Source: Antiquaquibacter oligotrophicus
Lineage (GTDB): Bacteria > Actinomycetota > Actinomycetes > Actinomycetales > Microbacteriaceae
Assembly (NCBI RefSeq): GCF_020535405.1
Contig: NZ_CP085036.1
Span: forward strand, 868,001-932,000
Length of the DNA stretch: 64,000 bases
Reading direction: 5' to 3'
The notes beneath the pieces are model-generated. The model worked only from the letters and a program-made list of their open reading frames with translations, was not told the DNA's origin and ran no database searches. The number at the start of each line of letters is the position of its first letter. The stretch's first letter is position 1. Shown here piece by piece: positions 7,263 to 55,639 of the stretch. Both the position numbers and the translations under genes were made by a program.

Positions 7263-7436
7263 GCCCCGATCCAATGGGAAATACCGCACGAGATTCAACT
7301 TAGTGCGCACGAAATGCGCGATGGTCCAGGAGCCTACGCCCGCCGGGGATCGCGCGGCAGAGGCATATCAGCGACGATCTCTCGAGTCAGCGGAGAAGGT
7401 GCTGCGCTGCCTCTCGCAAAGGCGACGCCTTACGTC

Positions 7437-7461
7437 GTGCCCCTGGAGGGACTCGACGCCC
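7437..7461 (-). pseudogene. Orphan 3' end fragment of a tRNA-Arg-like gene
   Basis: The plus-strand string GTGCCCCTGGAGGGACTCGA is repeated exactly at 7614-7633, where it is the acceptor and T-loop end of the split tRNA-Arg(CCT). Here the T-stem no longer pairs properly and no anticodon arm follows. It may be debris from an earlier integration at the same tRNA. Confidence 0.55.
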
Positions 7462-7584
7462 CACCGGCACGGCCGCCACGTCGCGGTAAGCCGCAAGTGC
7501 AAGTGACTGCGAAGCGCGACCCGTCGGAACCGGCGGGGCGGGGACCCCCGGCATCCGAGGGGCCACCCACCGGCACGATGTGAA

Positions 7585-7604: not shown

Positions 7605-7614
7605 CTCACATTCG

Positions 7615-7658
7615 TGCCCCTGGAGGGACTCGAACCCCCAACCCTTTCCTTAGGACGG
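7615..7658 (-). pseudogene. tRNA-Arg(CCT), 3' half (split by integrative element; includes attL core)
   Basis: Reading the minus strand, 7658-7615 gives the second half of the anticodon arm, the variable region, a T-arm with TTCGAGT, and the acceptor end CAGGGGC plus discriminator A. No CCA is encoded. Joined at the shared 15-bp core to the 5' half at 11261-11303 it forms a 72-nt tRNA with a 7-bp acceptor stem (GCCTCTG/CAGGGGC, one G-U) and anticodon CCT. The interruption falls in the anticodon arm. Confidence 0.8.
7644..7658. repeat. attL core (15-bp direct repeat)
   Basis: CTTTCCTTAGGACGG occurs here and exactly again at 11261-11275. It covers the anticodon loop and 3' anticodon stem of tRNA-Arg(CCT), a common crossover site for tyrosine recombinases. 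Confidence 0.8.
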
Positions 7659-7941
7659 TCACGATCGCGAAACAAGAGATTGCAATCCATCGCAGTCTCT
7701 AGGCCGAGATCCGCGGGAATACGGGATTGTTGGACAGTTTTGGTCGCGCGGATTGCAAGCGATTGAAGGGGATTGCCACGGCTGTTGCCCCACGTTTGCC
7801 CCACGTTCTGCCCCACGCCGGAGATACGAGGATGTCGCCTCAACGGAGCAGCGCTGGTCTTCGAGTGGCACGCAGAAAGCCGGTTCCGCTAATCCGGACT
7901 CGTCTGCGGATAGAGTTTGGGGAATTCCCGAAGGAGATTCA
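7659..7941. other. Left end of the element: non-coding, integrase-side remnant
   Basis: Apart from the repeats at 7786-7817 I see only a minus-strand frame reading VGQNVGQTWGN. It resembles the right-end frame VGQTWGRVEETPW near 11174-11214. Both arise because the TGCCCCACG repeats encode GQTWG on the minus strand, so this may be an integrase C-terminal remnant or simply the repeats. Confidence 0.4.
7786..7817. repeat. Arm-type repeats, left end (three TGCCCCACG)
   Basis: TGCCCCACG lies at 7786-7794, 7797-7805 and 7809-7817, spaced 11-12 bp, about one helical turn. The right end carries two copies at 11195-11214. Repeats of this kind flanking an att core are typical of integrase arm-binding sites. 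Confidence 0.6.
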
Positions 7942-9579
7942 GTGGCGAACGACACCGACTTCAACCATGACCAACTCGGTCACATCCTCGGGGACCAGTT
8001 GCTCGAGGTTCCACGCTTCCAGCGCGCGTACTCGTGGAAGCAGGAGAATGTCGAGGAATATTTGGCCGATCTAAAGGCCGCGAGGTCGCGTGGCGACGCG
8101 TACTTCATGGGGACTGCCGTCTTTGCTAAGCCTGCGGATCCGAAGGATCGATTACAAGTTGTCGACGGCCAGCAGCGCCTTGCAACTACAGCGGTGTTCT
8201 TCATGGCCATCCGCGATCTCCTCGCTGAGTACGGATTGGCGAAACAAGCAGAGGAGACCGAAAAACAATATCTGCGGGGATACGCGCTTTCGGCACAGGC
8301 GGAAGTCGAGAGACTGATTTTGAGCCCCAAAGACGTCCCGACCTACAACTTGCTGCTTGATGGCGACCGAGCAAACGCCGACGATGACCACCTGTTGACC
8401 GCCTGCTACGACGTCTGCCTCAATCACTTGCGGGAGGTCGCACCGACTCCAAAGGAAGTTGATCTGGTCAACGCAGTCGCGACTCAGCTCTTGACCCGCG
8501 TGCAAGTCCTAGTCGCTGTGGCTTCCGGGCTTTCCGAAGCGTACGTGATCTTTGAGACACTGAACGACCGCGGCGCAGACCTGACCACCGCAGACCTGCT
8601 CAAGAATTACCTGTTCAGCAAGGCCGGTGCACATATGCGCTACTTCGAGCACTCCTGGGTCGCGCTTGAATCGGGCTTCGATAAGGCGGACGATTTGGTG
8701 CGCTTCATCCGGTACGAGTACGCGACACGTAATGGTGCAGTGCAAGTGCGTCGGCTCTACCGCTCCATCCAGACCGAGCTCGAGCAGCCGGGCGCAGATG
8801 CTAGAAAATATGTCGAGAGGCTTTTGAAGGCTCGCGACGTGTACCGCGCGCTCCGCAACCCGGACGATGCGTATTGGTCTACTCAGGACACCGACGTTCG
8901 GGACGCACTCCTTGCGTACCGCCGATTTGGATTTGAGAGCAGTTTTCCGACACTCATGGCCGCATTTCTAAAGTGGACCAAACCCAGCGCGTCCAAATTG
9001 CTGGTCAAGCTGTCGAAGTGGTCAGTTCGTGCCCAGTTCGACGGACGAATCGGCGGACAGCAGTCCGAGGAAGCCTTCGGCACTGCCGCCGTCGCAATTA
9101 CCACCGGTGCGGCAACCAACCAAAGCGCAGTTCGAACGCACCTCGCTAAATTGATCCCGACCGATTCAACCTTCAAGGCCGCCTTTGTCGCGTACGGCGC
9201 AGTTCCCACAACACGGGCGAAATACGTGCTTGCGATGCTTGACCGCGCGGCTGAGTCCAAAGCTGGCCGGGCCCCGCGGTCGGTGGACTGGGCATCTACG
9301 TCCTACAACATCGAGCATGTCTATTCGAATAGCGCAGGCAAGTCCGACCCTGACCTGAATGAGATCGTCGGAACGATAGGCAACCTCGCGATCCTTGAGA
9401 AGAAACTCAACCGGGATCTGGGTGCGAAACCATTCAGCGCCAAAAAGACCAACTACGCGACATCAGATTTTGAGCTAACCAAGAGTCTGGCGAGTGAATC
9501 AACTTGGGGCAGGGCGGAGATCGAGAAGCGAACGCGCGAACTCGCCGACCTCGCCGTTATCGCGTGGCCAGCGCACTAG
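7942..9579 (+). CDS. DUF262/DUF1524 (GmrSD-like) nuclease, candidate defence protein
   Basis: The 545-aa protein has an N-terminal DUF262 domain (about 10-230) opening with LLEVPRFQRAYSWKQENVEE and carrying the NTP-linked motif VDGQQRLAT (D75-R79). The C-terminal DUF1524 His-Me/HNH-like domain (about 440-545) has IEH (His459), the GNL Asn481, and KKLNRDLG with Asn490. This pairing occurs in GmrSD-type modification-dependent restriction enzymes and in SspE/BrxU-like proteins, so it may cleave modified phage DNA. GTG at 7942 is chosen because AAGGAG lies 6 bp upstream; the open frame to 7753 lacks a ribosome site. Neighbours are an unknown gene and a tRNA inside the same element. No methylase or phosphorothioation gene is nearby. 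Confidence 0.85.
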   Translation: MANDTDFNHDQLGHILGDQLLEVPRFQRAYSWKQENVEEYLADLKAARSRGDAYFMGTAVFAKPADPKDRLQVVDGQQRLATTAVFFMAIRDLLAEYGLAKQAEETEKQYLRGYALSAQAEVERLILSPKDVPTYNLLLDGDRANADDDHLLTACYDVCLNHLREVAPTPKEVDLVNAVATQLLTRVQVLVAVASGLSEAYVIFETLNDRGADLTTADLLKNYLFSKAGAHMRYFEHSWVALESGFDKADDLVRFIRYEYATRNGAVQVRRLYRSIQTELEQPGADARKYVERLLKARDVYRALRNPDDAYWSTQDTDVRDALLAYRRFGFESSFPTLMAAFLKWTKPSASKLLVKLSKWSVRAQFDGRIGGQQSEEAFGTAAVAITTGAATNQSAVRTHLAKLIPTDSTFKAAFVAYGAVPTTRAKYVLAMLDRAAESKAGRAPRSVDWASTSYNIEHVYSNSAGKSDPDLNEIVGTIGNLAILEKKLNRDLGAKPFSAKKTNYATSDFELTKSLASESTWGRAEIEKRTRELADLAVIAWPAH

Positions 9580-9675
9580 GCCAGCCCGCCACCCAGCTAG
9601 ACAAAGGCGATGGCGATGGCGGGACACCTCCGAGCGGCCAGTGCTCGATGTCGCGCCTGCTGAGAGAATTTGAGT

Positions 9676-11049
9676 ATGGCAACTAGTCCCGGGTTCTACC
9701 TTGCAGTTGGGTCGGTTCTTAGCGAATCAGTCACTACGAGGATCACAACATCTGGCAGCAAGTACGTATCCAAAGCGCTGTCGTCAGGGCCGGCAAACTG
9801 GCGAAAGATCACTGAGCTCCTTGAACGCCCCGACCTCACCGGGGCGATCGTCAAGCTCACCGGTAAGGACTTTGAACGCTTACACCAGGATCGCTACCGC
9901 GATGCCGCCGCAGGGTTGTTGAACGCGCTTACGAAGGTGCCGCACATCCTCCTTGTGCACGAGGCTGTCGCAAGCGCGCCGGGACTTGAGCTGCCAAACG
10001 AACCTCTTCAAGAGAACGACGAAGGTGTGGTCGACGACGACTGGGACGACGGATCCTGGAACGATCGAGTTGCCAAAGCGTACTTCGGGACCGTGCCAGA
10101 CGAAGTTCGCGCCCACGTTCAAGAGCTGTTGGCAAGTCATGGCCTGACCATGTCCACGTATAAGCGCAACGCCGAAGCCTCGGTTCTCGCTGCATCGTTC
10201 GTCGATGACTCGCAAGGCAATCTTCTGTTCCGGATCTACGTGCCGTCGGGGAGGTTGTATGAGGATGAGTTGGCGAAGCTCCTCGAACTATTTCACGACT
10301 GGCTAGGTGCGGTGAAGCATCAGACGGTGAGGCAGGAAGGGTACAGGACTCCAAGCGGACGCGTGATTGAGTTCTATGGGGAACCAGGAACGACTGCAGC
10401 CGAAATGAGTACCGAACTCCAGGAGTTCACCGCATTTCTTAGCGTTATTGACGAGCCGGAGGCTGCGGAGCGAATGCTGAACGAAATGGGCCTTGAGCCG
10501 CGGCGCGCTAGGGAACTAGTGGCAAAGTATTCGAAGGAGGCTCGCCGAGTACTGCTAGATACGAAACACGAACGAGATCGTCGAACACTCGCGATTCAAC
10601 AGCAGCTTGAATCCGAACTGGTCGACGAACTGCAAGCTGTCCCTCCCGCGGAGATTGAACGCTGGGTCCAAGAGCTCGTACCTCATTCTCCTTTTGCGTC
10701 TAGCCCTTACACTCAAAAGACTCTTCCGGGATCCGCATTCCCTCAACTGGTCGTTCAACAGCAGTTCTTCCACCATGTCGAAGGCGTTGTGGCTCAGAAC
10801 GTAAACGGCTCGATCACCTTCGGAACACCCGCTGACGATCTAATCAAACTGATTCGCGAGTTCGGCGGCGACTCCATGAACGCACTTGAATCTGACACGC
10901 GCGAACTTTCCGATCCTGGGGCGCCTGCACCAGCGCGGATTGGGGCCCGTCAGAGACTCAAGGACTTCCTTGTTCGGAACGGAAACCGGATCGAAGGCGC
11001 TGCGTTCGCCACGGTTTGGAAGTGGCTAGAGGGTCAACTAGGTGGCTAA
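9676..11049 (+). CDS. Unrecognised 457-aa protein, partner of the DUF262 gene
   Basis: I cannot assign a family. No signal peptide or membrane segment is visible. Residues about 1-110 are helical and include KLTGKDFERLHQDRYRDAA. An acidic patch (about 115-130) precedes a mixed alpha/beta region containing RIYVPSGRLYEDELAKLLEL and SGRVIEFYGEPGT. A charged helical stretch follows (about 275-325, ARRVLLDTKHERDRR). The last 85 residues start VAQNVNGSITFG, then DDLIKLIREFGG, and end WKWLEGQLGG; such N-x-N-G-x-I-x-F tails recur in bacterial effector or defence proteins, but that is only an impression. ATG at 9676 is preferred to the TTG two codons earlier. It follows the nuclease gene by 96 bp. Confidence 0.75.
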   Translation: MATSPGFYLAVGSVLSESVTTRITTSGSKYVSKALSSGPANWRKITELLERPDLTGAIVKLTGKDFERLHQDRYRDAAAGLLNALTKVPHILLVHEAVASAPGLELPNEPLQENDEGVVDDDWDDGSWNDRVAKAYFGTVPDEVRAHVQELLASHGLTMSTYKRNAEASVLAASFVDDSQGNLLFRIYVPSGRLYEDELAKLLELFHDWLGAVKHQTVRQEGYRTPSGRVIEFYGEPGTTAAEMSTELQEFTAFLSVIDEPEAAERMLNEMGLEPRRARELVAKYSKEARRVLLDTKHERDRRTLAIQQQLESELVDELQAVPPAEIERWVQELVPHSPFASSPYTQKTLPGSAFPQLVVQQQFFHHVEGVVAQNVNGSITFGTPADDLIKLIREFGGDSMNALESDTRELSDPGAPAPARIGARQRLKDFLVRNGNRIEGAAFATVWKWLEGQLGG

Positions 11050-11088
11050 GAGTCCGGGCGCGGGACTCGCGGCTTAACATCGCCTGAG

Positions 11089-11160
11089 TGCCCCCGACAG
11101 GACTCGAACCTGCAACCTAACGCTTAGGACGCGCACGCTCTTCCATTGAGCTACGGAGGC
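11089..11160 (-). tRNA. tRNA-Arg(CCT), intact, carried by the element
   Basis: The 72-nt minus-strand cloverleaf has acceptor GCCTCCG/CGGGGGC, D-arm GCTC-AATGGAA-GAGC, anticodon loop GTCCTAA (CCT), and a T-arm GCAGG-TTCGAGT-CCTGT. The 27-43 pair is a T-T mismatch, and the reconstructed host tRNA is also mismatched there. No CCA is encoded. It lies inside the element, 101 bp from attR and in the same orientation as the disrupted host tRNA, so transcription from the host tRNA promoter beyond 11303 could reach it. Confidence 0.88.
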
Positions 11161-11260
11161 CAACCTTTTCCCTACCAGGGAGTTTCTTCTACCCTGCCCC
11201 ATGTTTGCCCCACGAAAACACTTGAAAACCCCGGAAAACCTGAACCCGTGAGGGAACATT
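11161..11260. other. Right end of the element between the carried tRNA and attR
   Basis: Contains the two arm-type repeats and a GT/AT-richer stretch with GGAAAAC motifs. No gene is convincing; a short minus-strand frame ending VGQTWGRVEETPW could be an integrase C-terminal remnant. Confidence 0.4.
11195..11214. repeat. Arm-type repeats, right end (TGCCCCATG and TGCCCCACG)
   Basis: Two copies 11 bp apart in the same orientation as the three at the left end, 47 bp from the attR core. Confidence 0.6.
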
Positions 11261-11275
11261 CTTTCCTTAGGACGG
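11261..11275. repeat. attR core (15-bp direct repeat)
   Basis: CTTTCCTTAGGACGG, identical to 7644-7658. The flanks differ immediately outside the 15 bp on both sides (T versus C before; A versus T after). Confidence 0.8.
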
Positions 11276-11303
11276 AACTGCTCTTCCATTGAGCTACAGA
11301 GGC
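11261..11303 (-). pseudogene. tRNA-Arg(CCT), 5' half (split by integrative element)
   Basis: Minus strand from 11303: acceptor 5' strand GCCTCTG, D-arm identical to that of the intact tRNA, then the anticodon arm up to GTCCTAAGGAAAG. After the core the sequence (AATGTTCCC...) cannot form a T-arm, so this copy is not restored by the element, unlike most tRNA integrations. Confidence 0.8.
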
Positions 11304-11418: not shown

Positions 11419-12339
11419 CTAGCTGGGAGGGTAGAGGAACGACACCACCGACGACGCGGGAATGGTGCGCTGGCTGTACATGCCGGGCACGTAGTTGTAC
11501 TCCTCGAGCGTCACGGTGCCGTCGGCATTGACGCTCTTCACGTAGGCCACGTGGTTGCCGCCGGTGTAGGCGACCGCGCCGGCGATCGGCACGTTCGAGA
11601 TGGTGCGGCCGAGCGACTCCCAGTTGTACTGCCACTGGCCGCCGTTGCCGCCGTACGGGGTGAGGTTCGACCACACCCACTTGAACGGCGGGGCAAACGA
11701 GCCCTGGTCGCGGTTGATGCGCCACGCGACGAAGTCGACACACTCGCGGTAGTAGTAATTGAGCGGCGAGAGCTGGTTGTCCATGATCTCGTAGGGCCAC
11801 GGGTAGTCGTCACCCATCTCACGAGCGCCCGACGCGAGGTAGGCCTCGTTGGCCGCAGCGCGCACGGCATCCTCACTCGCCTGTGCGAGCTGCTCCGGCG
11901 TGGTGGCGCTGTAGCCGTCGCGCGTGGCGATGCTCGCCGCGATGTCGTCGCTCACCTGGATGGTCTGCGTGGTGCCGGGCGCCTTCGCCTCGATCACCTG
12001 GGTCTGCTGCGTCGCGTACGCGGGAATGGCCGCGACAGCAAACAACCCGCCTACTGCGGTCATCGTTGCGAGAACGCTCAGCGGGTTGCGCTTGGAGGGC
12101 TGGGGCCCGGATGCCCGAACCTCCCGCACCTCGGAGGTACGAAGTGTCTTCTTCACGGCCCGAACCCGTGGCTGCTTCTGCCGTGTGGGCCGCGGAGCGG
12201 CTGCCGAGAGCGCCGCCGCCTGGCGGGCCGCGCGGCGCGACTCGTGCTGAACCTGGGCAGGGGCATCCGCAGAATTACCCCGCGCTGATGCAGGGTCGAA
12301 CAGGTCATCCAAGTTTCTGGATGGCGTGCGGTCAACCAC
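11419..12339 (-). CDS. CHAP-domain peptidoglycan hydrolase (secreted or membrane-tethered)
   Basis: The 306-aa protein has a long basic cytoplasmic N-terminus (1-85) and one hydrophobic segment (about 86-110, ending IPAYATQ) acting as anchor or late signal. The CHAP domain lies at about 185-306 with catalytic Cys near 201 (RECVDFVAWR) and His near 262 (NHVAYV). Before it is the motif ATRDGYSATTPEQLAQ, which the neighbouring NlpC/P60 protein shares in near-identical form. It probably cleaves amide bonds in the wall. The start is GTG at 12339 with AAGGGA about 13 nt upstream. It is the first backbone gene right of the accessory segment. Confidence 0.82.
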   Translation of the reverse strand: MVDRTPSRNLDDLFDPASARGNSADAPAQVQHESRRAARQAAALSAAAPRPTRQKQPRVRAVKKTLRTSEVREVRASGPQPSKRNPLSVLATMTAVGGLFAVAAIPAYATQQTQVIEAKAPGTTQTIQVSDDIAASIATRDGYSATTPEQLAQASEDAVRAAANEAYLASGAREMGDDYPWPYEIMDNQLSPLNYYYRECVDFVAWRINRDQGSFAPPFKWVWSNLTPYGGNGGQWQYNWESLGRTISNVPIAGAVAYTGGNHVAYVKSVNADGTVTLEEYNYVPGMYSQRTIPASSVVSFLYPPS

Positions 12340-14974: not shown

Positions 14975-16464
<1,490 letters not shown>

Positions 16465-55423: not shown

Positions 55424-55639
55424 TCGGACCTCATTCATCGGGCGTCGGGGAAGGGCAACGCCGCCATCCGATGCATGCGTATGGTTCGCGCGCCTCGGGA
55501 ATTCTAGGAGAGGTCGCTGGGAGTTGGCTAACCGAGGTCGGCCGAGCGGTGTCATACTGAGAGGTGGTGGCCTCGGCCGCCGCATCCATTCACTACGGAT
55601 CGTCCGGCACGTACCTGCCGGTGAAGGAGTTAGTTTCGC

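Follow-up and report, generated by a model that had tools for sequence, protein, structure and literature searches.

A 3.6-kb island carrying its own tRNA-Arg(CCT) probably split and replaced the host tRNA-Arg(CCT) gene in Antiquaquibacter oligotrophicus

Replacement of a host tRNA by one brought in on an integrating element is known so far chiefly from bacterial viruses. The tRNA-dependent lysogeny of actinobacteriophages was described by Guerrero-Bustamante and Hatfull (2024, PMC10865867). Table 2 of that paper gives Lys-TTT, Ile2-CAT, and Leu-CAA as the tRNAs replaced in phages, and the need for the carried tRNA was shown by experiment in the phages. An earlier Lactobacillus prophage is cited in its discussion. 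Substitution of a tRNA by phage-related sequences is reported for Sinorhizobium meliloti (PMC11476347), and prophages that instead rebuild the tRNA are the subject of PMC12429752. The cis-mobilizable element, or CIME, is defined in PMC5704250. No description of replacement tRNAs in non-phage islands was recognised in the literature searched, as far as the portions of the sources consulted extend.

The window analysed here is a 64,000-nucleotide stretch of the A. oligotrophicus genome. It contains an element that lies between the two halves of a host tRNA-Arg(CCT) gene, designated A, and that itself contains a complete tRNA-Arg(CCT), designated B (Table 1). In minus-strand direction, A breaks off at 11261 after its 5' half and picks up again at 7658 with its 3' half. 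Both halves contain the 15-bp core CTTTCCTTAGGACGG, which lies in the anticodon loop and is present in two identical copies 3617 bp apart. The first-pass annotation had recognised the two halves and their common core, with correct coordinates. It had also stated that neither junction restores the gene, and indeed neither ARAGORN nor Rfam calls a tRNA at either one. The puzzle of an unrepaired tRNA that this seemed to imply does not arise, as the annotation missed B, a complete tRNA of the same isotype inside the element. Nor is the integration an unexplained exception, the mode having already been published (PMC10865867). We consider it highly probable that a tRNA-carrying island split the host tRNA-Arg(CCT) gene by integrase recombination and that B replaced A.

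Table 1. Coordinates of the island, its junctions, and the adjoining host gene in the window
Feature	Position	Strand	Remark
3' half of A and attachment junction	7615..7658	minus	host tRNA-Arg(CCT)
Core copy 1, 15 bp	7644..7658	minus	
Three arm-type-like direct repeats (TTGCCCCACG, TTGCCCCACG, CTGCCCCACG)	7785..7817	plus	
Cargo 1, GmrSD-type (DUF262) protein, 545 aa	7942..9579	plus	PADLOC HEC-06
Cargo 2, protein of unknown family, 457 aa	9676..11049	plus	
B, complete tRNA-Arg(CCT)	11088..11160	minus	ARAGORN and Rfam, 59.1 bits
Two arm-type-like direct repeats (CTGCCCCATG, TTGCCCCACG)	11194..11214	plus	
5' half of A and attachment junction	11261..11303	minus	core copy 2 at 11261-11275
CHAP-domain gene	11419..12339	minus	host, outside the element; marks the insertion site in relatives

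The joined halves of A find some match in 320 of 349 family genomes. Going by the matches listed at 100%, 107 of the 349 genomes have an identical stretch of 73 nt or more. Within the genus, joined A is matched in all 27 genomes and is uncut in 25 of them. It is in two pieces only in the source genome (G000) and in a second genome, G002. A homologue of the CHAP-domain gene (46–70% identity) sits 5' of A at all 25 uncut loci, which are therefore taken as the empty site. The homologue is found at 26 of the 27 loci, including that of the 5' half in G002, and the 27th locus is the far end of the G002 island. Because uncut A and the CHAP gene are kept together in relatives, the halved gene is read as an insertion into a conserved site. 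The first-pass annotation had called for relatives with an uninterrupted tRNA and an insertion of exactly 3617 bp; the 25 uncut genomes provide the former, and the size agrees. A hairpin is present after the 3' end of A and the full matches are numerous, but the folding energy of joined A is no different from that of shuffled sequences (z = -0.47). Joined A is thus taken as genuine on the basis of homology rather than folding. Since the joined halves constitute a tRNA-Arg(CCT), attB overlaps a host tRNA gene.

Two further observations concern the same target gene. A second tRNA 3'-end fragment of 29 nt, 93% like 7612-7640, lies at 7435-7463 of the window, 177 bp beyond the 3' half of A. Similar fragments occur near A in several genus loci, and the one in the window is perhaps the fossil of an older insertion. 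In genome G026 (locus L081, 873-15331), a 14-kb integrase-bearing element occupies the 3' end of tRNA-Arg(CCT) in the ordinary restoring mode. Its cargo includes an MmeI-like restriction enzyme, an AAA ATPase, and a helicase, by which tRNA-Arg(CCT) may be a defence hotspot.

The island is composed of two protein genes, neither of them structural, and the tRNA. Phage structural genes were not recognised in it, and integration and transfer genes are absent from the element. Cargo 1 matches PF03235 and PF07510 above cut-off, so a single protein unites the N- and C-terminal domains of GmrSD. In PADLOC it is best matched by models of HEC-06, which is a candidate family for defence, and there is a match to one solved DUF262 chain. 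Most of its length is also covered by a match to phrog_21165 (9e-75), a PHROG of unknown function; relatives of cargo 1 therefore exist in phages, and a viral contig scan turned up no close ones. Cargo 2 has no match in Pfam, PADLOC, NCBIfam, or PHROGs. A scan with six exact peptides, which reaches close relatives only, returned a single relative of cargo 2 in the genome collection (57% identity, Microbacterium paulum). None was found in viral contigs or plasmids. Judged by family, the cargo is probably devoted to anti-phage defence. The G+C content is 57.6% in the element and 66% in its flanks. AGG accounts for 8 of 70 arginine codons in the two genes of the element, compared with 6 of 240 in a host sample of nine selected ORFs. 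Elsewhere in the window, an msiK RNA element is found at 55578-55635 (62.2 bits).

Identical cores and arm-like repeats are present at both ends of the element, and attL and attR are thus kept. The genome contains 14 exact copies of TTGCCCCACG, as many as of the reversed control, and 3 of the 14 are inside the element, where 0.018 are expected. The double repeat was found in 10 viral stretches. In five of these (L115, L117, L118, L122, and L124), a BLAST search at 1e-4 detects a tRNA, or half of one, at a distance of 59 to 134 bp. A tyrosine-integrase motif, defined by a pattern devised for the analysis, lies over the double repeat or within about 110 bp of it in five of the ten (L116, L117, L118, L121, and L124). 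L124 also matches annotated phage integrases, and L117 matches L124. Three stretches (L119, L120, and L123) have neither a tRNA by BLAST nor the integrase motif near the double repeat. Among the 349 family genomes, the double repeat is confined to the source genome and G029. In G029, an integrase gene some 40 kb away has a similar repeat pair at its end, as expected for the two ends of one element.

In L117 and L124 the repeats stand between the tRNA 3' half and the integrase, and in the window they stand between the tRNA 3' half and the GmrSD gene. This arrangement suggests that an integrase formerly followed the window repeats or is supplied in trans, one of which is probably the case. In line with the first-pass annotation, no integrase was found in the 3617-bp element: it contains no PF00589 match, and the four PF00589 matches of the source genome are all elsewhere. 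No integrase relic was found in the element. A peptide resembling an integrase tail at the left repeats was rejected as a relic, the repeats themselves encoding it. The integrase family of L124 is matched in 7 of 398 genomes at 1e-45, and no match was obtained in the source genome at this threshold.

The split A of G002 is occupied by a different island. Its 12-bp core copies are 17,408 bp apart, and different repeats, TATCAAC, are present on both sides. The 17.4-kb island carries a tRNA-Arg(CCT) about 95 bp inside the other junction. It also encodes an integrase-like protein of 422 aa, which matches PHROG integrases and 475 phage records at 1e-10. These records include Boilgate (31%), a phage of the 2024 paper (PMC10865867). 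The best phage relative is Microbacterium phage vB_MoxS-R1 (45%), in which inspection by eye found no tRNA-Arg half near the integrase. The G002 protein has no PF00589 match and, as judged by eye, has WQ where its sisters have GH and a shorter tail. On these grounds it may be inactive. The island additionally contains a TrwC relaxase fragment, a sign of conjugative rather than phage ancestry. Among other genomes, G174 has an intact gene and, 46 kb from it, an integrase (39% identity to the G002 one) next to a 3' half of 47 nt; this is the ordinary restoring mode, and G174 was set aside. In G115 (locus L198, 4707-6310), an integrase 39–41% identical to that of G002 lies beside the 5' half of tRNA-Arg(CCT), and an intact gene is on another contig. 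This is perhaps a 5'-half restoring element. G048 has a 3' half only, which ends at the contig end.

The chances are evenly balanced that the window element is the dead residue of a prophage or conjugative island that was once larger and has decayed to 3.6 kb, and that there is no small mobile unit. The missing integrase, the same arrangement in the 17.4-kb island of G002, and the failure to find a second copy of the 3.6-kb unit are consistent with decay. Against this, the reading frames of both cargo genes are uninterrupted and seem to be of full length, the cores do not differ, and the repeats are kept on both sides.

B lies about 100 bp inside one junction. Its Rfam score is essentially that of the intact A of G003 (59.0 bits). 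Rfam finds 45 tRNAs in the source genome, among which B is the sole CCT by ARAGORN anticodons and the only intact tRNA-Arg(CCT). The remaining arginine tRNAs are CCG, ACG, and TCT. A and B share 77% identity and have the same anticodon loop, but TTCCGTCCTAAGGAA of A is GCGCGTCCTAAGCGT in B. B is without the 15-bp core, of which a 9-bp piece, CTTAGGACG, is left. With the core absent, B is likely to serve poorly as a target of the same integrase; phage cores go down to 8 bp (PMC10865867, Table 2). The proximity of B to the 5' half of A resembles a possible tandem copy, as if B were an old host duplicate and the insertion had struck one of a pair of adjacent host tRNA genes. This is improbable, as B is located between the two cores, the 25 uncut genus genomes gave matches to A-type genes only at this site, and B is closest to the island-borne tRNA of G002 (92%) and to a tRNA of another genome, G148 (100%).

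The DNA upstream of B shows no sharing between the window element and other elements. Two B-derived patterns had no match in viral contigs, and the phage matches to B among the matches listed are phage tRNAs of only 77–84% identity. A 97-nt tRNA-Gly(TCC) called at 16192-16288 of the window by ARAGORN, and not by Rfam, overlaps the end of a long reading frame and is probably a false call.

Judged from the assembled sequences, an assembly error is very improbable: the window belongs to a single-contig genome, and the arrangement recurs around a different island in G002, an independent genome. That the halves, each complete in sequence, are transcribed separately and joined in trans as a split tRNA is likewise very improbable, given the complete CCT tRNA, a core duplicated in both halves as integration predicts, and the uncut gene that is the rule in relatives.

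A search with B at 1e-15 among 398 family genomes, in which G002 was left out, matched seven, four of them by other tRNAs. In G161 and G407, the B-like match (84–85%) is an A-like CCT tRNA; in G234 and G235, it is a TCT tRNA. The three B-type genomes are the source genome, G148 (identical), and G201 (97%). G148 and G201 belong to another genus, of which G248 and G079 have strong A matches. In both, B is flanked by blocks that match the A locus of the sister genome G248, and hence lies at the orthologous site. A decayed 3' end of A is located about 170 bp from B in G148. Searched by match only, G148 yields no host-type A at E values up to 1e-3. In G201, which is 88% complete and was searched in the same way, there is none among the best matches listed (best E 6.6e-11). 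These comparisons suggest that the island tRNA replaced host A for good in G148 and G201 as the island itself decayed. A less favoured reading is that B was transferred separately.

The following sequence of events would account for the locus by integration and replacement. A mobile island enters the anticodon loop of the single tRNA-Arg(CCT) gene of the host by recombination between attP and attB, presumably catalysed by a tyrosine integrase; the insertion itself is evident from comparison with relatives. Neither junction would rebuild the tRNA because attP and attB have only the 15-bp core in common. B, a complete gene, would then take over as the CCT tRNA, and its different anticodon stem and lack of the 15-bp core would spare it from the same integrase. 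Arm-like repeats flank the core on both sides, and the integrase may have been lost or be given in trans by a related element. Without an integrase, the only way out for the island would be exact recombination of one core with the other. If any other deletion removed B, the last CCT tRNA would go with it, and for this reason B may anchor the island. The CCT tRNA may, for its part, be dispensable, since tRNA-Arg(TCT) may read AGG in the source genome and no A-like CCT tRNA was found in 6 of 13 re-examined family genomes, the 13 having been picked from 349 mostly for weak A matches.

A wider generalisation is tentative and rather doubtful. It holds that replacement-tRNA integration also operates in non-phage islands, including a minimal defence cassette that has no integrase of its own and is mobilised in trans by integrases recognising TTGCCCCACG arms, and that it can lead to permanent replacement of the host tRNA, as in G148 and G201. 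The case would extend a type of integration known in phages to a compact defence-like island. It suggests how such an island could make its own loss costly, and offers a concrete route by which a bacterium could swap one of its core tRNA genes for a foreign version.

The window island resembles tRNA-dependent lysogeny (PMC10865867) in its host tRNA target, its short core (8–17 bp in the positive examples of that paper), the tRNA left unrestored at the junction, and the carried tRNA of the same isotype. It differs in involving tRNA-Arg-CCT and a 3.6-kb island, and in being known from sequence alone. The phages of that system are temperate and encode tyrosine integrases; no integrase gene was found in the island, which is not a recognisable temperate phage. 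Like a CIME (PMC5704250), it keeps its attachment sites and has no recognised integration and transfer genes. CIMEs stem from ICEs or IMEs; the window island may or may not share that descent, and it carries a whole tRNA. The S. meliloti case (PMC11476347) likewise replaces a host tRNA gene by an incoming one, but concerns phage-related sequences in Alphaproteobacteria. Islander islands (PMC4383910) share the tRNA target and a site centred on the anticodon. Islander needs a restored tRNA and an integrase gene, and the window island is without both. Finders with these two requirements are expected to miss such islands.
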